A DNA stretch of 44,618 nucleotides from a virus. The stretch is taken from IMG/VR virus record IMGVR_UViG_3300043172_000232, positions 1-44,618 of that record, one strand, 5' to 3'. The notes beneath the pieces were generated by a model. The model searched no databases and was not told where the DNA came from. It was given only the letters and a program-made list of their open reading frames with translations. The translations under genes and the position numbers were made by a program. Shown here in pieces: positions 3,620 through 42,689 of this stretch; position 1 is the stretch's first letter; each line of letters opens with the position of its first letter.

Positions 3620-3951
3620 AACATCCGACACTACAACAAGTTCGGGACCGGATTGGCTTTAAGGGATTCAAACACACAGACGCATTTCTGTTCTGGTCAT
3701 ATTGGGATAGTCGCGGCTGGAAGCGCGGCGGGCAGCCTATGGTGAAATGGAAAAGTGCATTGGCCGGCTGGAATTACAGGAACAAGAAGGAGGCTGGCAG
3801 TAAGACAAAAGGCCCGATTCTGTGCAAAAACTGCGGTGCGCCGTCTATAGGGATGCGGGAGAACAAGGCTTATTGCAATAAATTGGAGTGTAGAGCGGCT
3901 GCGGGGCAGGTATCTTCACAATTTTTACTGAAATCGAAACAAATCACTTGA
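3616..3951 (+). CDS. Replication-like winged-helix C-terminal fragment with zinc ribbon, 111 aa
   Basis: Start chosen at 3616 because GGAG lies six bases upstream; a longer in-frame start at 3565 has no site. Residues 1-50 (PTLQQVRDRI ... FWSYWDSRGWKRGGQPMVKWKSALAGW) match the short element found at the C-terminus of phage replication initiators and DnaD-like proteins (PT..EV..Y....F..YY...GW..G...M.DWK.A...W). A zinc knuckle follows (CKNCG ... CNKLEC). It may bind DNA or a replication partner; the rest of an initiator is absent. Confidence 0.65.
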   Translation: MKHPTLQQVRDRIGFKGFKHTDAFLFWSYWDSRGWKRGGQPMVKWKSALAGWNYRNKKEAGSKTKGPILCKNCGAPSIGMRENKAYCNKLECRAAAGQVSSQFLLKSKQIT

Positions 3952-3975
3952 CTTTTGGCTGAGGTAGTGTAGAAT
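3948..3975 (+). promoter_or_regulatory. Sigma70-type promoter for pseudoknot leader 1
   Basis: TTGACT (3948-3953), a 16-base spacer and TAGAAT (3970-3975). Predicted start near 3982, 18 bases before helix A of the first pseudoknot. It overlaps the end of the upstream gene. Confidence 0.75.
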
Positions 3976-3999
3976 ATATGCTGATTAAGGAATATAGCA

Positions 4000-4076
4000 T
4001 GACCCTCACAGTGAGAAAACAGATTATAACCACCTCGACAGGCTTTCGTGAGGGTCAGCCTACGAGGTGGTTTTTT
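4000..4076 (+). ncRNA. Pseudoknot leader/attenuator RNA, copy 1
   Basis: Helix A: TGACCCTCAC (4000-4009) with GTGAGGGTCA (4048-4057), 10 bp. Helix B: AACCACCTCG (4028-4037) with CGAGGTGGTT (4063-4072), 10 bp, running into TTTTTT (4071-4076). The order A-B-A'-B' makes an H-type pseudoknot. Helix C, AGGCT (4040-4044) with AGCCT (4057-4061), flanks A' and would extend the B terminator hairpin, in competition with A-A'. It lies between a promoter and the ribosome binding site of an adenine methyltransferase, so it could terminate transcription conditionally or yield a roughly 95-nt small RNA. Confidence 0.8.
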
Positions 4077-4098
4077 CTTGCGCGGAGGTGGGGATGAA
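4069..4098 (+). repeat. 30-base direct repeat, copy 1 (leader exit and ribosome binding site)
   Basis: Identical to 5134-5163. It covers the last two G of helix B', the T6 tract, the spacer TCTTGCGC, the site GGAGGTGGGG and ATGAA. The 3' exit of leaders 1 and 2 is conserved at sequence level while the pseudoknots themselves are not, pointing to duplication of a regulatory cassette. Confidence 0.9.
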
Positions 4099-4501
4099 TA
4101 AAGGAATGTTCACGTCCAAAACAGATGAATGGTCAACGCCACAAGATTTGTTTGACGAACTTGATGCAGAGTTTCATTTCAATTTAGACCCGTGCTGTAC
4201 CGTCAAAAACGCCAAATGTCGATATACCTACACGAAAGACGAGGACGGTCTGGCACATTCATGGGGCGATTATCGTGTATTTATGAATCCTCCCTACGGT
4301 AGAGAAATCGGCAAATGGATGAAACATGCGTATGGGTGTGACGCAGAGATTGTCGTCTGCCTTGTCCCCGCCCGTACAGATACTGCATGGTGGCACGACT
4401 ACGCAATGGAAGGTGAGGTAAGGTTTATTCGTGGGAGATTAAAGTTTGGCGGATCTAAAAACTCTGCCCCCTTCCCGTCTGCGATTGTGATATTTCGTTA
4501 G
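4094..4501 (+). CDS. Phage DNA N6-adenine methyltransferase (Dam-like), 135 aa
   Basis: Start 4094 is set by GGAGGTGGGG directly upstream; the longer frame from 4067 runs through the terminator helix. The protein fits the phage DNA_N-6-adenine-methyltransferase family (PF05869 type): WSTPQDLFDELDAEF, FNLDPCC, DGLAHSW, the catalytic NPPYG motif at about residues 66-70, LVPARTDT, FIRGRLKFG and a final FPSAIVIF. It should transfer a methyl group from SAM to adenine N6 in DNA, protecting phage DNA from restriction or altering regulation. Length is near the compact family minimum. Preceded by pseudoknot leader 1. Confidence 0.92.
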   Translation: MNKGMFTSKTDEWSTPQDLFDELDAEFHFNLDPCCTVKNAKCRYTYTKDEDGLAHSWGDYRVFMNPPYGREIGKWMKHAYGCDAEIVVCLVPARTDTAWWHDYAMEGEVRFIRGRLKFGGSKNSAPFPSAIVIFR

Positions 4502-4571
4502 ACAACTAATTCAGAGTCCAGCCTATGCTTAACTTAGCTGACATACTCGATACCGTGATTTGCGGGGTGGG

Positions 4572-4781
4572 ATGGTAGGCGTAGACGATTACATTAGAAC
4601 TGTCACGGAAGTCACAGAATGGAACAGGCAGGTGATTGCTCGCAGGGAAAGGAAGAAGAAAAATGATACCAGTAAATCAGATAGGCCGGTACAGAACGTG
4701 TTTTCACAGAATGCTGAACGAGAGAGTCAAGCCATACATCCGCAAAACAAAGAAGCAACAGGAAGTTCTGCACCCGCGTAA
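4572..4781 (+). CDS. Doubtful small ORF, 69 aa
   Basis: ATG at 4572 follows GGGGTGGG, but the frame overlaps the better-supported gene at 4663 by 119 bases. The N-terminal half (DDYIRTVTEVTEWNRQVIARRERKKK) looks helical and protein-like, while the C-terminal half lies in the overlap and is low in structure. A 17-codon frame (4525-4578) ends at its start by an overlapping ATGGTAG. It may be a truncated older gene. Confidence 0.35.
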   Translation: MVGVDDYIRTVTEVTEWNRQVIARRERKKKNDTSKSDRPVQNVFSQNAERESQAIHPQNKEATGSSAPA

Positions 4782-4974
4782 GCATTACATCGTTATGATC
4801 GAAGGGCGTATATGGCTTATTTGGTACAGTAATTACAAAAAGGAAGGTTCGGTGATAGGAGAGATTAGCTACCCCCAGAAGATGGGCAAGACTGCTTATA
4901 CGGCAAAAGAATGGGATGGGATAGTGGCTGAGTACATACCGATAGCCGAGCGAGTGATTGAGGGTATGGAATAG
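4663..4974 (+). CDS. Hypothetical basic protein, 103 aa
   Basis: Start 4663 has GGAAGAAG five bases upstream and is preferred over 4636. The protein is basic and rich in aromatic residues (HYIVMIEGRIWLIWYSNYKKEG), with a small beta-sheet likely in residues 35-75. It lies in the same transcript as the adenine methyltransferase. No family recognised. Confidence 0.65.
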   Translation: MIPVNQIGRYRTCFHRMLNERVKPYIRKTKKQQEVLHPRKHYIVMIEGRIWLIWYSNYKKEGSVIGEISYPQKMGKTAYTAKEWDGIVAEYIPIAERVIEGME

Positions 4975-5012
4975 GACGAAAGAGATAAATTTGCTTTATT
5001 TGAGAATACCCA

Positions 5013-5041
5013 TTGACATGATTAAACGACTATGTTATAAT
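5013..5041 (+). promoter_or_regulatory. Consensus sigma70 promoter for pseudoknot leader 2
   Basis: TTGACA (5013-5018), a 17-base spacer and TATAAT (5036-5041): a perfect consensus promoter. Predicted start near 5048, six bases before helix A. Confidence 0.9.
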
Positions 5042-5053
5042 GCAGGGCGAAAT

Positions 5054-5141
5054 GGATAAACCGTCGAACAACCTGATTAGTAGTTCAAAACCCCTTAGCA
5101 GGGCAAATTTGACGGTTTGTCCTCCTGTTTTGGGGTTTTTT
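5054..5141 (+). ncRNA. Pseudoknot leader/attenuator RNA, copy 2
   Basis: Helix A: 5054-5068 with 5108-5122, 15 bp including two G-U pairs (core AAACCGTC with GACGGTTT). Helix B: AAAACCCC (5087-5094) with GGGGTTTT (5132-5139), followed by the rest of a T6 tract ending at 5141. Helix C: AGCAGG (5097-5102) with CCTGTT (5124-5129), flanking A'. Same A-B-A'-B' order as copy 1 with no sequence in common in the helices. Precedes the cytosine methyltransferase-like gene. Confidence 0.82.
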
Positions 5142-5163
5142 CTTGCGCGGAGGTGGGGATGAA
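5134..5163 (+). repeat. 30-base direct repeat, copy 2
   Basis: Identical to 4069-4098 (end of helix B', T6, ribosome binding site and ATGAA). See that entry. Confidence 0.9.
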
Positions 5164-5740
5164 GATTCTGGTTGCTTGCGAATTCTCAGGGCGGGTGCGT
5201 GACGCTTTTATCAAGCGGGGGCATGAAGCTATGTCCTGCGACTTGCTACCCACCGAATCACCAGGGCCTCATTATCAGGGCGATATCTTTGATGTTACGG
5301 GCGACGCATGGGACTTAATGATCGCATTTCCGCCTTGTACCTATTTATGCAGGCAGGGGCAGCGGTGGATCGGCCACCCGAAGCATCCGAACCGACTCGC
5401 CAAACAAAGGAAAGCTATCGACTTTTTTCTGTCATTAACAGAAGCCCCGATAGATAAGATTGCTGTTGAGAATCCTGTAGGTGTATTAAACACAAGATTC
5501 CGCAAGCCCGACCAAATCATACAGCCGTGGCAGTTCGGGCATGATTATTCAAAAAAGACGTGCTTGTGGACTAAGAATTTACCGCAACTGCGGCCTACAA
5601 AAATAGTGCAGGTCACATATATCACTACCCCCAAGGGCAAAAGGTTTACGCGGGGATGGTACGAAATGCCTCGCGAGAGCCGAAACAGGAGCATAACTTT
5701 CCCTGGCATAGCCGACGCAATGGCAGAGCAGTGGGGATAA
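5159..5740 (+). CDS. Cytosine-C5 DNA methyltransferase-like protein, 193 aa
   Basis: Start 5159 follows GGAGGTGGGG and is preferred over 5117, which lies inside the leader. It has a SAM-binding-like start (ILVACEFSGRVRDAFIKRGHE, CDLLP), FPPCTYL with the catalytic-type PPC, and VENPVG matching motif VI (ENV/ENP). At 193 residues it lacks room for a normal target-recognition domain, as in the short phage relatives of this family. It may methylate cytosine or carry out another base modification; activity is uncertain. Leader 2 controls it. Confidence 0.8.
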   Translation: MKILVACEFSGRVRDAFIKRGHEAMSCDLLPTESPGPHYQGDIFDVTGDAWDLMIAFPPCTYLCRQGQRWIGHPKHPNRLAKQRKAIDFFLSLTEAPIDKIAVENPVGVLNTRFRKPDQIIQPWQFGHDYSKKTCLWTKNLPQLRPTKIVQVTYITTPKGKRFTRGWYEMPRESRNRSITFPGIADAMAEQWG

Positions 5741-5754
5741 ACTTGCTTTATTCA

Positions 5755-5976
5755 ATGAGTAAAATAGTGAGAAAAAGTCTAAAGGCTAATAAGATGGAAA
5801 GTGGACAATAGATTCAGAGTGTTATCCCACATGATGACGTTGAGTGCGTAGGGACGAAAGAGTTGTTTCCGTGGTTCTTGTTCTGTGTTAGACCCCCCGA
5901 TACAGACTATCGCCATTGCGATATGGGAGTATTTGGTGCGTTCCTACCCGCTACCACGTTAAAAAAAGGCGATTAA
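5755..5976 (+). pseudogene. Small ORF split by an in-frame TAG (amber)
   Basis: ATG at 5755 opens 18 codons ending ANKMESGQ, then TAG (5809-5811), then the same frame continues for 54 codons (IQSVIPHDDVEC ... GVFGAFLPATTLKKGD) to TAA at 5974. The downstream part has no ATG, GTG or TTG until well inside, so it is either a decayed gene or amber readthrough. Other genes here end in TAG (for example 1934, 4974, 6598), so TAG is not globally reassigned. The ribosome binding site is poor. No family recognised. Confidence 0.45.
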
Positions 5977-5979
5977 ACA

Positions 5980-6114
5980 GTGAAAGAAACGCGCTGGGAT
6001 ACATACTCGTCCGAACTCCGTAAGCAGGAGTTTACAATCTTCCCCGATTCGTCGGGGGGAAAGCGCCTGAACCGACAACCGAAGCACAAGGGAAGTAATG
6101 TACTACAGAGTTAA
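5980..6114 (+). CDS. Possible small basic protein, 44 aa, over two hairpins
   Basis: GTG start six bases after the previous TAA; weak site AAAGGCG. It overlaps the endonuclease start by 17 bases. The DNA also contains two perfect hairpins: AACTCC/GGAGTT (6014-6019 with 6027-6032, 7-base loop) and CCCCGA-TTCG-TCGGGG (6042-6057, UUCG tetraloop). The region may therefore be an RNA leader for the endonuclease rather than, or as well as, a gene. Confidence 0.4.
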   Translation: MKETRWDTYSSELRKQEFTIFPDSSGGKRLNRQPKHKGSNVLQS

Positions 6115-6598
6115 ACAAGGCCGTTGCCAGCATCCTAAATGTAAGCGTAAAGGCAAAAAGGCTACGGCGAAATGGAACATCAATGGTATTCTACGTTGCC
6201 ATAGATGTGCTAATGCATGGTTTAGTCATGGCGAGGTATCGAAGCCAGAGGACAAAAGGGGGTTGGCAGTAAAACGTGCGAAACAATTGAGAGAAAATGC
6301 AACGGAGTCGGAATTAGTGTTCAAGTATAAACTGGACAAAACCGAATGGCAATTCAAATTTCAGAAGATTTTCGCTCGAAAAAACATGTTTGCCATTGTT
6401 GATTTTTATATTCCTCACAAGAAACTTTGTATTGAAATTGATGGCGGATATCACAATAAGCGGGAACAGAAAAGGAAAGATAATTGGCGGGATAGCTGGT
6501 TGAGAAAACGACGCGGAGTAACTGTTATGCGGTTGACGAATGAGGATGCGACGGAAATGTCAGTTGACTCGATTAACAGAATGATCGAAGAAGCATAG
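6098..6598 (+). CDS. DUF559/Vsr-type endonuclease with zinc-finger N-terminus, 166 aa
   Basis: ATG follows GGGAAG. Residues 9-40 contain CQHPKC ... CHRC, a zinc finger. From about residue 60 the PD-(D/E)XK Vsr/DUF559 fold is clear: LRENATESELVFKYKLD, FKFQKIF, AIVDFYIPHKKLCIEIDGGYHNK and a final VTVMRLTNEDA. Catalytic candidates are E68, D113, E125 and D127. It should nick or cut DNA. Free-standing enzymes of this type include homing (E-Vsr) endonucleases and host-interference nucleases. Its position between structured RNA regions and leader 3 suggests it could mobilise this segment. Confidence 0.82.
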   Translation: MYYRVKQGRCQHPKCKRKGKKATAKWNINGILRCHRCANAWFSHGEVSKPEDKRGLAVKRAKQLRENATESELVFKYKLDKTEWQFKFQKIFARKNMFAIVDFYIPHKKLCIEIDGGYHNKREQKRKDNWRDSWLRKRRGVTVMRLTNEDATEMSVDSINRMIEEA

Positions 6599-6650
6599 TA
6601 GGACTAAAAAAGGTAGACATGAATTTGTTGAAGGAAATTTTACTTTTTAC

Positions 6651-6678
6651 TTGACTTCCGGCTGAAAAAAGGTAAGAT
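6651..6678 (+). promoter_or_regulatory. Sigma70-type promoter for pseudoknot leader 3
   Basis: TTGACT (6651-6656), a 16-base spacer and TAAGAT (6673-6678). Predicted start near 6685, at the first base of helix A. Upstream wording (ACTTGACTTCCGGCTGA) resembles the leader 1 promoter (ACTTGACTTTTGGCTGA), so these two promoters are related. Confidence 0.7.
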
Positions 6679-6685
6679 GAATATA

Positions 6686-6767
6686 TGGACGTAAGATCGA
6701 AACATTCTTGTGCTAACAACCTCGCGGGCAATTCTTCGGTCTTGCGTCCAAACCGTGAGGTTTTTTT
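6686..6767 (+). ncRNA. Pseudoknot leader/attenuator RNA, copy 3
   Basis: Helix A: 6686-6701 with 6735-6750, 16 bp with two G-U wobbles (TGGACGTAAGA with TCTTGCGTCCA in the core). Helix B: AACCTCGCGG (6718-6727) with CCGTGAGGTT (6753-6762), 10 bp with one wobble, then T7 (6761-6767). Interleaved as in the other copies; helix C is not evident here. Unlike the others it is followed after two bases by a tRNA-like gene, not by a ribosome binding site. Confidence 0.8.
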
Positions 6768-6769
6768 AT

Positions 6770-6845
6770 GTCCCCGTAGCTCAGTTGGTTAGAGCAGTGG
6801 TCCAACATTATCACCGTGTCGCAGGTTCGAGTCCTGCCGGGGACT
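6770..6845 (+). tRNA. tRNA-like gene with an 8-base anticodon loop (aberrant or pseudo-tRNA)
   Basis: Acceptor GTCCCCG (6770-6776) pairs with CGGGGAC (6838-6844); D-arm GCTC/GAGC; T-arm GCAGG-TTCGAGT-CCTGC is canonical. The anticodon stem GTGGT (6797-6801) pairs with ATCAC (6810-6814) but encloses eight bases, CCAACATT, with no U33, and the variable loop has six bases. No anticodon can be assigned safely. It may be degenerate, a frameshifting-type tRNA, or a tRNA-like domain of the RNA that follows. Confidence 0.7.
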
Positions 6846-7070
6846 TAGGCGAAAGCCAACAAAAAGTCCAGCGAACGCGGGCAGGCCCTTAATCGGTGTA
6901 CGGCTGAATCCGGAACAGCGTGGCGAACTATGCGTGACAGCCGGGAGAGTACCGGCATTAAAAAGGAAATACGAGAAGCGGCGGCGAAAGCCGAGAGCAT
7001 GGCCTGATTGTGCAGGACAAAATAACTCTACAGGGTACAGGGAGAATCTCTCCTGCCCGCTTCTCGTATA
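6846..7070 (+). ncRNA. Candidate structured non-coding RNA downstream of the tRNA-like gene
   Basis: There is no convincing reading frame in about 320 bases. A perfect 13-bp helix (6969-6981 with 7057-7069) closes a four-way junction with hairpins CGGC-GAAA-GCCG (6982-6993), CCTG/CAGG (7003-7016) and GGAGA/TCTCC (7041-7053). Upstream are GGC-GAAA-GCC (6848-6857) inside GGACTT/AAGTCC (6841-6869), which competes with the tRNA acceptor, and GCCGG/CCGGC (6940-6956). Large ornate phage RNAs beside tRNAs (GOLLD, ROOL) are known, but I cannot match this to either. Confidence 0.6.
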
Positions 7071-7086
7071 TTTGACAATATAATAA

Positions 7087-7171
7087 TGGGCAGTAAGGTA
7101 AGCAGTAAGTCTACCCAGTTGTGTTCCGGACACGCTGCGCTAATGCAACTTGCCTGCCTGCCCACCTTTTT
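7087..7171 (+). terminator. Terminator-like long hairpin with U-tract
   Basis: TGGGCAG (7087-7093) pairs with CTGCCCA (7158-7164) and GGTAAG (7097-7102) with CTTGCC (7149-7154), separated by a 3x3 internal loop; GTGT-TCCGG-ACAC sits inside. CC and T6 follow. It closes the non-coding region just before the ribosome binding site of the next gene, so it may act as an attenuator. Confidence 0.6.
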
Positions 7172-7192
7172 TAACTCACAGGAGGCTGTAAA

Positions 7193-7411
7193 ATGAAAGA
7201 ATACAATCCAAAGATAGAAGATGGTTGGCGGATAACAGGTTGTCCTGTACATTTAGGCTCACCAGGTTTTTGCGGCGCAACTCCAGGTCTTTTATGTCCA
7301 ACAGAAACAGAGACTCCTGCCATCCCCCCCAAATGCCCTGCCCGTAGTGAAGGGTTTTTGACTAAAGTGATCGACTCTAATTCTATGGGAGGACATAACA
7401 ATGGGAACTAA
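7193..7411 (+). CDS. Hypothetical protein, 72 aa
   Basis: Strong ribosome binding site AGGAGG. Gly/Pro/Cys-rich in the middle (CPVHLGSPGFCGATPG) with four Cys before residue 50. No homologue recognised. It overlaps the next gene by 11 bases, and is the first frame after the terminator-like hairpin. Confidence 0.65.
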   Translation: MKEYNPKIEDGWRITGCPVHLGSPGFCGATPGLLCPTETETPAIPPKCPARSEGFLTKVIDSNSMGGHNNGN

Positions 7412-7759: not shown

Positions 7760-8530
7760 ATGAGCACAAAAATACCATGGGCGGATGAAAGCTGGAATGT
7801 GATTGTGGGATGCTCAAAGGTTTCGGCGGGGTGCCAGAATTGCTATGCTGAGAGAATGGCGCGAAGGCAGGCGGCAATGGGCAATACGAATTATCGTTGG
7901 GTTACAAGCAATGGTAAGTGGGCGGGCAAAACAACTTTTGTCGAATCCGCTCTCGAAAAACCCTTCCACTGGCGCAATCCCCGCACAATCTTTGTCGTTT
8001 CGATGGGTGATTTGTTCCATGAGACTGTGCCGTTCGAGTGGATTGAAAAAGTAATGGGCGTGATAGAACAATGCCCACAACACTTTTTCTATATGTTAAC
8101 CAAAAGGCCACATATTATGGCTGAGTATTTCAATGGGTTGGGAAAAAGCTATGAGTTGTCATGTTGCCCTAATCTTTGTCTGGGCGTAACGGTGGAGAAC
8201 CAGAAGGCCGCCGCCGAGCGGATACCGATTCTATTGAAGATACCTGCGGCGCAAAGGTTTATTAGTTTCGAGCCATTGCTGGAAGCTCTTACATTATGGC
8301 CTCTCGATATAAGAGGCATTTCCGTGGGGTTCATCGGGTGCGAATCTGGCCCCGGCGCAAGACTCTGCAAACAAGACGCCATCTTGGATTTACGCTATCA
8401 GTTATCAAATGCCAACGTCAAAGTCGGCATAAAACAAATACCCCTCAATGGCAAGTGCAGCAAGTTCGAGAACAGGGACCAGTGGCCGGAAGATTTAAGA
8501 GTGTGGGAGATTGAGCATGAGCAGTCCTAA
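7760..8530 (+). CDS. Gp37/Gp68 family (DUF5131) protein with three-Cys cluster, 256 aa
   Basis: It opens IPWADESWNVIVGCSKVSAGCQNCYAER; the C-x6-C-x2-C set with following Tyr matches the Gp37/Gp68 family, thought to be distantly related to radical SAM enzymes. Later family marks are VSMGDLFHE, FYMLTKRP, LGVTVENQ, RFISFEPLL and IGCESGPGAR. An iron-sulfur chemistry on nucleic acid or nucleotides is inferred from the fold; the substrate is unknown. Full length for the family. It sits in the early operon, upstream of small coupled genes. Confidence 0.88.
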   Translation: MSTKIPWADESWNVIVGCSKVSAGCQNCYAERMARRQAAMGNTNYRWVTSNGKWAGKTTFVESALEKPFHWRNPRTIFVVSMGDLFHETVPFEWIEKVMGVIEQCPQHFFYMLTKRPHIMAEYFNGLGKSYELSCCPNLCLGVTVENQKAAAERIPILLKIPAAQRFISFEPLLEALTLWPLDIRGISVGFIGCESGPGARLCKQDAILDLRYQLSNANVKVGIKQIPLNGKCSKFENRDQWPEDLRVWEIEHEQS

Positions 8531-10533: not shown

Positions 10534-11081
10534 AACGATACTTGATAATAATCTTCTTATTGTGCTTTATGACAACCGATACCACTCATTCTACCATTCC
10601 GGCAGAAATTCAGCTCAACTGGATGGAACCAAAGCAGGGTTATGGTAGTCCGTTATGGGACCTTACTGACTACGGCGAACTTGCTGCTCAATATCAGGGT
10701 AGGCGCATAGGTCAACTTTATCGGGGCATGGCTATTGGTGACCCGGAGGCGTTGGAATGGTTTCTTGAAGCGTGCGGAAAGCGAGGGTGGTTCTATATTG
10801 GCAAATACAAACTAACCGGTGAGCGAACCGAAAAACTTACTTATGAATTTATACCGGGAGTTGGTCGATGTGTCACCGGTTGCGTAGTAACCTGGAAGAC
10901 AACTTCGACTTTTGCACCGATACCATACCGAAGGGTTCGACAACCTGTGGAAGTCGAACCGAACCCGCCGCCAATTCAATTTGTAGTGGACCCCAACTCG
11001 GTTGTCTACGACCCGAACGATGACCCGAACGATGACCCGGCATTGAAAATGTTACACGAAATTATGAAAGGAAAACCATGA
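10530..11081 (+). CDS. Exported hypothetical protein, 183 aa
   Basis: N-terminal signal peptide (YLIIIFLLCFMTTDTTHS) with likely cleavage near residue 22. The mature part has a soluble domain with a Cys pair (RCVTGC) and a proline/acid tail with a DPNDDPNDDP repeat. It lies between two lipoprotein genes with ATGA couplings, suggesting a small envelope-directed operon. No family recognised. Confidence 0.72.
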   Translation: MKRYLIIIFLLCFMTTDTTHSTIPAEIQLNWMEPKQGYGSPLWDLTDYGELAAQYQGRRIGQLYRGMAIGDPEALEWFLEACGKRGWFYIGKYKLTGERTEKLTYEFIPGVGRCVTGCVVTWKTTSTFAPIPYRRVRQPVEVEPNPPPIQFVVDPNSVVYDPNDDPNDDPALKMLHEIMKGKP

Positions 11082-12499: not shown

Positions 12500-12528
12500 T
12501 TGACATTCCCCGTTAAACCTGTTATGAT
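12500..12528 (+). promoter_or_regulatory. Strong sigma70 promoter, probably for a leaderless mRNA
   Basis: TTGACA (12500-12505), 17-base spacer, TATGAT (12523-12528). The usual start distance puts +1 at about 12535, which is the A of the next gene's ATG. There is no ribosome binding site upstream of that ATG. Confidence 0.82.
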
Positions 12529-12534
12529 ACTAAT

Positions 12535-12855
12535 ATGACTTACGATGAAATATATCAGGCTGTCCGTGCTTACATGGACGCAAACGGCACAACCCTCCAA
12601 CAATTAGCCTCCGTCACCCCTACGCAGGCTATCTCCCTGTTAGGGCTCACAGGAGACGATGTGGGGCGTCTAAACCGTGGATGGGATGCTTTACGCACCC
12701 GGATCAAGCGAGAGCTTAGAAGCGAAGCGGAGGCCCAAGAGCTTACCGACCTGAAAGACTTCGCTAAAGCGTGGGTTTGGAACAAATGGCCCGATGCTCA
12801 ATTCGGGAGAAGTGGCAGAGAGATCACTATCTATCTTGACGGGGGGCAGGAATGA
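12535..12855 (+). CDS. Hypothetical protein, 106 aa, leaderless start
   Basis: ATG coincides with the predicted transcription start. The protein is helical (YDEIYQAVRAYMDANGTT, LRTRIKRELRSEAEAQEL) and may carry a small HTH-like region (TLQQLASVTPTQAISLLGL). It overlaps the spike gene by ATGA, so it could be a chaperone or linker for that protein, or a regulator; neither is proven. Confidence 0.75.
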   Translation: MTYDEIYQAVRAYMDANGTTLQQLASVTPTQAISLLGLTGDDVGRLNRGWDALRTRIKRELRSEAEAQELTDLKDFAKAWVWNKWPDAQFGRSGREITIYLDGGQE

Positions 12856-40902: not shown

Positions 40903-40930
40903 ATTATAACCCACCTGAAAGAAATGTCAA
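40903..40930 (-). promoter_or_regulatory. Consensus promoter of the pseudopilin gene
   Basis: On the minus strand TTGACA (40930-40925), 16-base spacer, TATAAT (40908-40903). The predicted start falls on the A of ATG at 40896, implying a leaderless transcript that then reads through TerS and beyond. Confidence 0.85.
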
Positions 40931-40935
40931 ATCTT

Positions 40936-41340
40936 TTATAAAAATAGTGCTGCCGGGTGATAAATATTAAGAAACGCATCTATAGTCTGCTCCACCGTTT
41001 TCCCTGCCCATCCTGTTTCCCAATGGTTTCGAGTCCACGTTTTGACAACCTTGGCATTGGCGGCATCTATATCACATTGAACAGGTTGATTGTGGCTTGC
41101 ATGTATAAGAATAGCCGGTATAGGTATCGTCCATAGATTAGAGACAAGTCTTGTGTAAAATAAAAACTGGCCGGTATCAATTTCTTTGTCGCCGTACTTG
41201 TACTCGACAAAAATAAAACATTTATTCGCAAACTCAACCGCACAATCTACATCTGTTGGGGTAATCTTTCCCCATCGCAGGCCCCGCATATCTATTATTT
41301 GTTGTGCCCGTGGCCTATTATGTATTAAGCCCCTATCCAT
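40936..41340 (-). CDS. PD-(D/E)XK nuclease-like protein, 134 aa
   Basis: Start at 41340 gives an eight-base overlap with the methyltransferase stop. TPTDVDCAVEFANKCFIFVEYKYGDKE contains the D...E-x-K active-site pattern of restriction-type or Holliday-junction nucleases. Pairing with an adenine methyltransferase resembles a restriction-modification unit, though a phage processing nuclease is equally likely. Confidence 0.72.
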   Translation of the reverse strand: MDRGLIHNRPRAQQIIDMRGLRWGKITPTDVDCAVEFANKCFIFVEYKYGDKEIDTGQFLFYTRLVSNLWTIPIPAILIHASHNQPVQCDIDAANAKVVKTWTRNHWETGWAGKTVEQTIDAFLNIYHPAALFL

Positions 41341-42127
41341 GATACAGGCATACCCCGAACTTTCCAAACTCAGACAGGAAATGCTGTGAGTGGACGCCAT
41401 AATATAATATCATTTGCCCTTGTAATGGAGCACCTTTGGCCTCACCTTCAACATCAAGGAATTTTATACGTCCCGACGGGAAGCATACCGCAGCACACAG
41501 ACCTAATAGCTTTTGCCCGAATCCTGTTTCCGTGGCGTTATTGACTAAGACGCAGGCTTCGGTGACTTCGCCGGTTGATAGCTTCTTAGCTAAAGTATTG
41601 CAGAATTGGGATATATGGGGCTGAGAGTATGGCGGGTTCATCCATACCCTGCCTTTCCATTTCTGCTCAAGCCCATCAGATTCGGTGTCATAGTAGGTTT
41701 TTGCATTGACAGTCTCATTCGCTATCTTGCTACTTGCCGGATCGACATCTACGCCACCCATCACCTCTTTTGCGGCCTCTACAAACTTCGGGGGCGTATA
41801 CCATTCGTTTTCCCCTGAGTTGTGAGATACGTGGACAACTGTCTTTATCCACCCCAATGCCTTGAAATGTCGTAAAGGAGTGGGCGAAGATATGCCCTTG
41901 TTGCTTAACCAATCCAGCCATGTCGGTAATTCGACATTTGTTGATTTATCCATATCCCCTGTCTTGAAGGCGAGCTTTTGGTAAAACACCCACAACTCTG
42001 AAACAACACCAATAGATAACCGCCGCCAGTCTCGGATATACTTATCGAAGTTCTTGTCAGCTTTTGCAAAGTCCCAATCAGAGGGAATGTCCGGCTTGTC
42101 CGCCACTACGGGGATTATATCATTCAT
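41333..42127 (-). CDS. DNA N6-adenine methyltransferase with N-terminal extension, 264 aa
   Basis: Start at 42127 (TTTGGAGTTGTT before it). Residues 1-110 form a helical DNA-binding-like region (LPTWLDWLSNKGISSPTPLRHFKALGWI). The methyltransferase part shows NEWYTPPKFVEAAKEVMG, VDVDPAS, DGLEQKWKGRVWMNPPYSQP, LVNNATETGFGQKLL and PSGRIKFLD. Catalytic motif NPPY is intact. Its leader is pseudoknot copy 5. It differs strongly from the enzyme at 4094. Confidence 0.92.
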   Translation of the reverse strand: MNDIIPVVADKPDIPSDWDFAKADKNFDKYIRDWRRLSIGVVSELWVFYQKLAFKTGDMDKSTNVELPTWLDWLSNKGISSPTPLRHFKALGWIKTVVHVSHNSGENEWYTPPKFVEAAKEVMGGVDVDPASSKIANETVNAKTYYDTESDGLEQKWKGRVWMNPPYSQPHISQFCNTLAKKLSTGEVTEACVLVNNATETGFGQKLLGLCAAVCFPSGRIKFLDVEGEAKGAPLQGQMILYYGVHSQHFLSEFGKFGVCLYHG

Positions 42128-42136
42128 AACAACTCC

Positions 42137-42219
42137 AAAATAAAACCAGCCCCAGAACATAAGCTACGCTACATAGGATATGTGCCCCGGAGCCAGTTAT
42201 TTTGCAAAAGTAGCATAGC
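42137..42219 (-). ncRNA. Pseudoknot leader/attenuator RNA, copy 5 (minus strand)
   Basis: Read on the minus strand: helix A GCTATGCTAC (42219-42210) with GTAGCGTAGC (42172-42163), one wobble; helix B AACTGGCTCCGG (42198-42187) with CTGGGGCTGGTT (42155-42144), 12 bp with four wobbles; then TTTTATTTT ending at 42137 and GGAG. Helix C ACATA (42183-42179) with TATGT (42161-42157) flanks A'. The same A-B-A'-B' order, in front of the second adenine methyltransferase. Confidence 0.8.
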
Positions 42220-42228
42220 ATAAACCGC

Positions 42229-42256
42229 ATTATAACGACACAAAGCAAGATTGCAA
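42229..42256 (-). promoter_or_regulatory. Promoter for pseudoknot leader 5
   Basis: Minus-strand TTGCAA (42256-42251), 16-base spacer, TATAAT (42234-42229). Predicted start about 42222, three bases before helix A. Diverges from the promoter of leader 4. Confidence 0.75.
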
Positions 42257-42287: not shown

Positions 42288-42316
42288 TTGACTTATTCAA
42301 GAGGCGCGGGTATATT
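42288..42316 (+). promoter_or_regulatory. Promoter for pseudoknot leader 4
   Basis: TTGACT (42288-42293), 17-base spacer, TATATT (42311-42316). Predicted start about 42323, six bases before helix A. Confidence 0.75.
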
Positions 42317-42328
42317 GTAAATATGAAA

Positions 42329-42408
42329 TGCGAAGATACAAAACAAATCTCACCTCTCCCTGACAGATCGTATCTTCGCAGATTCCCCGTTCAGGGAGAG
42401 GTTCTTTT
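42329..42408 (+). ncRNA. Pseudoknot leader/attenuator RNA, copy 4
   Basis: Helix A TGCGAAGATAC (42329-42339) with GTATCTTCGCA (42370-42380), 11 bp; helix B ACCTCTCCCTGA (42352-42363) with TCAGGGAGAGGT (42391-42402), 12 bp; then TTCTTTT. Short helix C GATC (42366-42369) with GATT (42381-42384). A' fills the apical loop exactly. Followed by AAGAGGATAG and the gene at 42426. Confidence 0.82.
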
Positions 42409-42425
42409 ATTAAGAGGATAGAATT

Positions 42426-42689
42426 ATGGAAATCTTCGGCATCCGTATAGCCAAAACAAAGACAATTCGGGCAGAGATTGAGGCTGAGAAAATGGCTATT
42501 ATGCAAAGCAATCTCACAGAAATGGCTCGTATGATAGAAAGCTTCAAGGCCGCCGACAAGAGACTGGACATGATGATGTCTAATCTGCTTGAGCGCGGTG
42601 CGAAACTGACATTGATTGAAAGAGCCTTGCCTGATATGTCAAGTGGGGCACGTGAGCAGATTATGAAATTGCTCAATATTGCCAAATAG
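42426..42689 (+). CDS. Helical hypothetical protein, 87 aa
   Basis: First gene after leader 4. Nearly all helix with heptad pattern (IRAEIEAEKMAIMQSNLTEM, SFKAADKRLDMMMSNLLERG). Probably an oligomeric early protein. No family. Confidence 0.75.
   Translation: MEIFGIRIAKTKTIRAEIEAEKMAIMQSNLTEMARMIESFKAADKRLDMMMSNLLERGAKLTLIERALPDMSSGAREQIMKLLNIAK

Follow-up and report, generated by a model that had tools for sequence, protein, structure and literature searches.

Sequence-Divergent Pseudoknot Leaders With an Open Reading Frame in a Tailed Phage: Candidate Translation-Coupled Transcription Attenuators

Results

Leaders and Downstream Genes of the Phage Window

The stretch of DNA analyzed here (the window), a virus record of 44,618 bases, comes from a tailed phage encoding Terminase_3, a portal protein, an HK97-type capsid protein and a tape measure protein. 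Five compact leaders, w1 to w5, lie in the window immediately upstream of three methyltransferase genes, an 87-aa gene and a group of tRNA and ncRNA genes. Each leader carries two helices, A pairing with A' and B with B', arranged in the order A-B-A'-B' and followed by a U-tract, as listed below.

3948–3975, plus strand: promoter of w1, TTGACT-16-TAGAAT
3999–4097, plus strand: leader w1, 32-codon ORF (MTLTVRKQ...RRWG), stop overlapping the Dam start (ATGA)
4000–4009 (A), 4028–4037 (B), 4048–4057 (A'), 4063–4072 (B') and 4071–4079 (U-tract), plus strand: arms of w1
4094–4501, plus strand: DNA N-6-adenine methyltransferase (Dam, PF05869), putatively under w1
5013–5041, plus strand: promoter of w2, TTGACA-17-TATAAT, 12 of 12 consensus bases
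5052–5162, plus strand: leader w2, 36-codon ORF, stop overlapping the methyltransferase start
5054–5068 (A), 5087–5094 (B), 5108–5122 (A'), 5132–5139 (B') and U-tract to 5144, plus strand: arms of w2
5159–5740, plus strand: DNA methyltransferase (phrog_757), putatively under w2
6651–6678, plus strand: promoter of w3, TTGACT-16-TAAGAT
6685–6792, plus strand: leader w3, ATG 6 nt past the −10 hexamer, 35-codon ORF entering the tRNA
6686–6701 (A), 6718–6727 (B), 6735–6750 (A'), 6753–6762 (B') and U-tract to 6767, plus strand: arms of w3
6770–6845, plus strand: tRNA with an unusual anticodon loop, first unit downstream of w3
42288–42316, plus strand: promoter of w4, TTGACT-17-TATATT
42323–42421, plus strand: leader w4, ATG 6 nt past the −10 hexamer, 32-codon ORF, stop 7 nt before the next start
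42329–42339 (A), 42352–42363 (B), 42370–42380 (A'), 42391–42402 (B') and U-rich to 42411, plus strand: arms of w4
42426–42689, plus strand: 87-aa protein with no family match, putatively under w4
42229–42256, minus strand: promoter of w5, TTGCAA-16-TATAAT, divergent from that of w4
42120–42221, minus strand: leader w5, ATG 7 nt past the −10 hexamer, 33-codon ORF overlapping the Dam start
42219–42210 (A), 42198–42183 (B), 42172–42163 (A'), 42159–42144 (B') and U-rich to 42137, minus strand: arms of w5
41333–42127, minus strand: Dam-type DNA methyltransferase, putatively under w5

Because the arms cannot be aligned between copies, a purpose-written descriptor scan (A-B-A'-B', G-U pairs allowed, T-run after B') took the place of a covariance model built from all copies. 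The only outliers in the window were 4000–4072, 5054–5139, 6686–6762 and 42329–42402 on the plus strand and 42219–42144 on the minus strand, the same five copies that the initial annotation had named, with the helix lengths of 8–16 bp that it had claimed. Their total helix scores ranged from 52 to 60.5, compared with 42.5 or less for everything else in the window. Dinucleotide shuffling of the window, repeated 100 times, never gave a score of 50 (maximum, 48), in line with the annotation's expectation that random sequence would not yield two such interleaved helices. When promoter and loop limits were included, 60 shuffled genomes scored no higher than 41, vs. 45.5–62.5 for actual elements from three genomes, and these shuffled-genome controls rule out a chance origin of the interleaved helices. 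Since the descriptor and its cutoffs had been fitted to the earliest copies, the scan gives a background rate rather than a sensitivity; two elements described below (Q5 and Q6) were missed at first. A sigma-70-like promoter with 9–12 of 12 consensus bases lies just upstream of all five window leaders.

Searching with Rfam 15 covariance models at gathering score returned tRNAs only, and a relaxed search of positions 3900–7200 likewise gave no match to the leaders. The open-access papers that we searched did not describe any element of this kind.

Several other features of this region were recorded. ARAGORN could not assign the anticodon loop of the tRNA at 6770–6845, which has the four bases "aaca." A stretch of ∼215 nt at 5870–6084, which has CGTGG/CCACG ends, contains TTAAAAAAAGGCGATTAAA and is followed by a small ORF, is 76–81% conserved at 8085–8221 and 45706–45922 of two phages with few other genes in common with this one (G001 and G007, respectively, introduced below), and has no Rfam match. 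Among the tRNA-like genes, a repeated element of ∼95–130 nt bounded by TACGAGAAGCGG and CCGCTTCTCGTA occurs at 6970–7068 of the window and at 1787–1918 and 2066–2160 of locus L115, and is possibly an unrecognized ncRNA.

Equivalent Leaders in Other Phages

The initial annotation had made its case depend on finding the arrangement in other phages, and equivalent leaders with unrelated arm sequences were present in three further phage records, bringing the total to 16 distinct elements, at three to six copies per phage genome. Other loci were retrieved via the terminase, the methyltransferases and a short conserved DNA element. The first record, IMGVR 3300037245_000796 (G002), is a close relative that has three quarters of its genome in common with the window: window positions 10618–44618 and G002 positions 1–34001 are 100% identical over 34,001 bases, and w4 and w5 are hence common to both. 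The remaining quarter consists of diverged mosaics in which the leader cassettes differ, G002 having two leaders of its own (H1 and H2) in its left region; cassettes vary as units between otherwise identical phages. The other two records, 3300028610_000318 (G001, three leaders, P1–P3) and 3300028610_000650 (G007, six leaders, Q1–Q6), have few genes in common with the window. Another sample, 3300024265, contributed a fragment that matches part of G007 at 100% identity.

Leader w5 and P1 of G001 both precede homologous Dam genes (68% identity over the shared part) and have unrelated arms. Conversely, a tail, GCGCGGAGGTGGGGATGA, around the Shine-Dalgarno (SD) sequence and start is common to three leaders with unrelated arms (window 4073–4096 and 5140–5161; G007 590–564, minus strand), which suggests cassette joining at the SD. 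No exact match to the tail GGTTTTTTCTTGCGCGGAGGTGG was found in viral contigs.

Within the searchable DNA the leader family is narrow. Other phage and bacterial loci, ∼3.6 Mb in total, gave background matches only, and 74 bacterial loci with Dam relatives held no prophage or host copies of the leaders. For the parts tried, phage and plasmid collections contained no near DNA match to the window. A planctomycete host for the window phage is a guess from protein style; neither a phage gene nor the 5860–6085 element had a relative in 392 genomes from the phylum of one match titled Phycisphaera.

Covariation of the Two Helices

Arms are unrelated in most copies, and every position of both helices is occupied by at least three pair types. 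The initial annotation had read compensatory change from the five window copies themselves, where it is unreadable as their arms are not homologous to one another; such change is seen instead in homologous pairs. Q5 and Q6 of G007 are homologous copies whose alignment needs no structural fitting. Each of the 20 proposed pairs holds in both (40 of 40 cells), in an A:A' helix of 8 pairs, a B:B' helix of 5 pairs crossing it and a hairpin of 7 pairs between them, and nine double compensatory changes fall three to each helix. Sliding the partner strand reduced pairing to 32–48% with 0–1 double changes, and none of 500 shuffles reached the observed values. Two interleaved helices with covariation, here three double changes in each crossing helix, are a mark of an H-type RNA pseudoknot, in which both helices would also form at the same time, and the significant covariation that the annotation had called for is therefore present in this pair. 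The second comparison, w3 with H2 of G002, has an identical promoter and diverged arms, with the outer A stem retained; helix B shows one double and one single compatible change, which is weak evidence. The leader structure is thus under selection, as read from strong covariation in one homologous pair plus one weak pair, and the notion of a sequence-divergent, structure-conserved family with two interleaved helices is upheld.

A conserved motif in the L1 loop, ACAATCA, was considered and dropped, being not significant after allowing for motif choice (the best L1 6-mer occurs in 7 of 14 elements, and equally in 14% of shuffles). A collection scan for a promoter followed by ACAATCA gave background matches only.

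A Reading Frame From Arm A to the Downstream Start

Overlooked in the initial annotation was a small reading frame of 27–48 codons in each leader, which runs from arm A across the terminator to the downstream start. Its ATG lies mostly 6–7 nt past the −10 hexamer, at the edge of arm A: in the first scans, which yielded 14 elements, the distance was 3–10 nt in 12, mostly exactly 6, the exceptions being w1 and Q2 (16–23 nt). Arm A itself starts at the AUG or within ∼6 nt of it in most copies. The frame was open across A, B, A', B' and the U-tract in all 14 elements, compared with 2 of 14 and 3 of 14 for the other two frames (5 of 28; Fisher p = 2.2e-7). Its stop overlaps the downstream start or lies within 12 nt of it in all 12 of these elements that precede a protein gene, and overlaps it likewise in Q5 and Q6; the frames of w3 and H2 run into tRNA/ncRNA sequence. 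The encoded peptides are not conserved save for the part encoding the common SD region, and a plain leader-peptide function was rejected because the peptides are alike only there.

Given this spacing, the leader mRNAs are probably leaderless, with transcription starting at or a few bases from the AUG, and w1 and Q2 are probably not strictly so. In these phages, an ATG at spacing 6 after a strong −10 hexamer occurred 9 times vs. 2.7 in shuffles, a tally to which some of the leaders contribute; such other genes make leaderless mRNAs plausible in the host. Two candidate leaderless phage genes with no pseudoknot leader, at 12500–12535 and at 40930–40896 (minus strand), have near-perfect sigma-70 promoters and an ATG exactly 6 nt past the −10 hexamer.

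Terminator Position Defines Two Forms

The U-tract is located just upstream of the SD, ∼75–125 nt from the AUG, and looks strong in most copies; those of P2 and P3 (G001) and Q3 (G007) are weak or displaced. In 13 elements B:B' is the terminator stem itself. The uniform layout that the initial annotation had described does not extend to P3, Q5, and Q6; these retain both the start-codon helix and the helix crossing it, and their terminator is a separate hairpin farther downstream that has a U-tract of its own. The start-codon helix is therefore the constant part of both forms, and the separate terminator in these three copies argues that the pseudoknot is not a mere by-product of termination.

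Discussion

A Proposed Race of Ribosome Against Polymerase

We propose, with a probability of roughly 55%, that each element is a translation-coupled transcription attenuator governed by a kinetic race of the first ribosome against RNA polymerase. If the leader frame is translated and the transcript begins at or near the AUG, the initiating ribosome would, judging from its position, cover arm A. A ribosome loaded before synthesis of A', ∼60 nt later, would hold A:A' and B:B' open, trail the polymerase across the terminator, stop on the next start codon, and hand over to the downstream gene. With no timely ribosome, A:A' would shut over the start codon and B:B' would complete the pseudoknot, whereupon B:B' with its U-tract (or, in three copies, the separate hairpin with its U-tract) would terminate transcription and leave an RNA of ∼80–125 nt. 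Three methyltransferases of the window, the 87-aa gene and the tRNA/ncRNA operon may be under such control. Peptide and arm sequences would be free to drift because only pairing, openness of the frame and position would matter. Since w3 and H2 precede a tRNA/ncRNA operon, control cannot act solely on downstream translation; for these two a translational hand-over would make no sense, and only the transcriptional half could apply. The direction of control is something we infer. Its premises have precedents: a terminator located within 100 bp of the beginning of a frame is still effective because the first ribosome lags (PMC4824070), and structure at the start codon strongly reduces translation of leaderless mRNA in some species, and CA repeats after the start codon boost translation (PMC9031893).

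The closest known system is E. coli pyrBI, with its leader frame pyrL; the pseudoknot lock and the free arm sequences appear to be new. The pyrL frame ends beside the structural gene, and a U-rich pause site upstream of the terminator senses UTP. The phage ORFs similarly span the terminator and U-tract (14 of 14) and end beside the gene in the 12 protein-gene elements; no U-rich pause tract was identified before B in the leaders inspected, and L1 is A-rich (A 0.42, T 0.27) and G-poor. A ribosome close behind the polymerase across pyrL prevents the terminator, which the leader frame crosses, from forming (PMC5021804), and in the phage leaders a coupled ribosome may suppress it in the same way. 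Unlike pyrBI, the phage frame is mostly leaderless, its start codon sits in a helix crossing the terminator helix, and there are three to six copies per genome. Pseudoknot riboswitches with terminators (SAM-II, preQ1, fluoride) likewise combine a pseudoknot leader with a terminator or a translation platform, whereas the phage leaders have no conserved ligand-binding sequence, unrelated arms and an open frame throughout. That these phages carry a sequence-independent class of attenuator, with the 5'-terminal start codon of a leaderless frame locked by a pseudoknot and the downstream protein or tRNA gene transcribed only if the ribosome outruns the polymerase, is a tentative and nearly evenly balanced proposal.

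Alternative Explanations

The main rival, which we consider rather unlikely, assigns A:A' the opposite sign, as a topological antiterminator. Transcribed ahead of B', A' would pair with A first, closing a loop of ∼28–48 nt that contains B and topologically keeping B:B' from winding into a full-turn terminator while the RNA is tethered to polymerase. An untranslated leader would then read through, and a ribosome parked on the start codon would free B:B' and cause termination. Each hairpin is stable by itself, and nested minimum-energy folds choose A or B variably, as this model would have it. Against it stand P3, Q5, and Q6, which keep the pseudoknot with a terminator independent of B:B', an arrangement that it does not need.

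Alternatively, the leaders could be constitutive throttles or insulators, in which a fixed-strength terminator behind the promoter lowers expression of the cassette with no sensing. The exchange of cassettes as units between otherwise identical phages and the strong-looking U-tracts of most copies would fit, but arm A, its position at the start codon, the open frame and the A:A' covariation would be left unexplained, and we regard this reading as unlikely.

The initial annotation had offered two roles, a conditional terminator and a stable small RNA, of which the former is the better. A stable small RNA, or an mRNA leader protected at its 5' end, would have both ends in helices, with read-through as a by-product, and the compact 5' and 3' helices and terminator-like end are compatible with it. 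As a main role it is less supported because every element lies directly upstream of an SD/start codon or of the tRNA/ncRNA operon and is never free-standing; in addition, the loops hold no conserved motif and the open frame has no explanation, making this quite improbable.

An amino-acid-specific attenuator of the trp/his kind, in which stalling at control codons switches the A and B pairings, resembles the leaders in having a small leader frame, four pairing segments and a U-tract with terminator ahead of the first gene, and the trpL of Sinorhizobium meliloti is itself leaderless, its transcript starting with the trpL ATG (PMC7298713). Codons 2–13 of the phage leaders are also enriched in Asn (20 vs. 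9.3 expected) and Ser (26 vs. 12.9). This enrichment, however, follows the G-poor, A/C-rich L1 and varies between leaders, and no leader has more than four equal residues in any eight, hence no run of control codons. The pairing is 1:3 and 2:4 (interleaved) rather than the 1:2, 2:3, and 3:4 of trp, his, and ilv leaders, and the frame continues through the terminator to the next gene. An alternative antiterminator overlapping the terminator stem is absent from the common form, as A:A' and B:B' occupy separate arms in the 14 scanned copies. We therefore find this explanation very hard to sustain.

Least credible is a processive antitermination signal that acts on the polymerase, as in phage HK022, whose put RNAs work through conserved RNA structure and sequence: both are structured RNAs directly behind phage promoters (early ones for put), but the phage leaders show no sequence conservation and, unlike put, have a terminator and a reading frame built in.

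Implications

If the proposed race is correct, these leaders would represent a portable phage regulator that works without a ligand, a regulatory protein or a conserved sequence and depends solely on pairing, position and an open frame. Neither similarity searches nor nested covariance models would detect such leaders, and similar ones may therefore be common and unseen; a simple rule for finding them would be a promoter, an ATG 6 nt on, interleaved helices, a U-tract and a stop/start overlap. They would also provide a compact natural device in which transcription-translation coupling becomes directly testable, and would place tRNA and methyltransferase genes among those that coupling can control in an infected cell.
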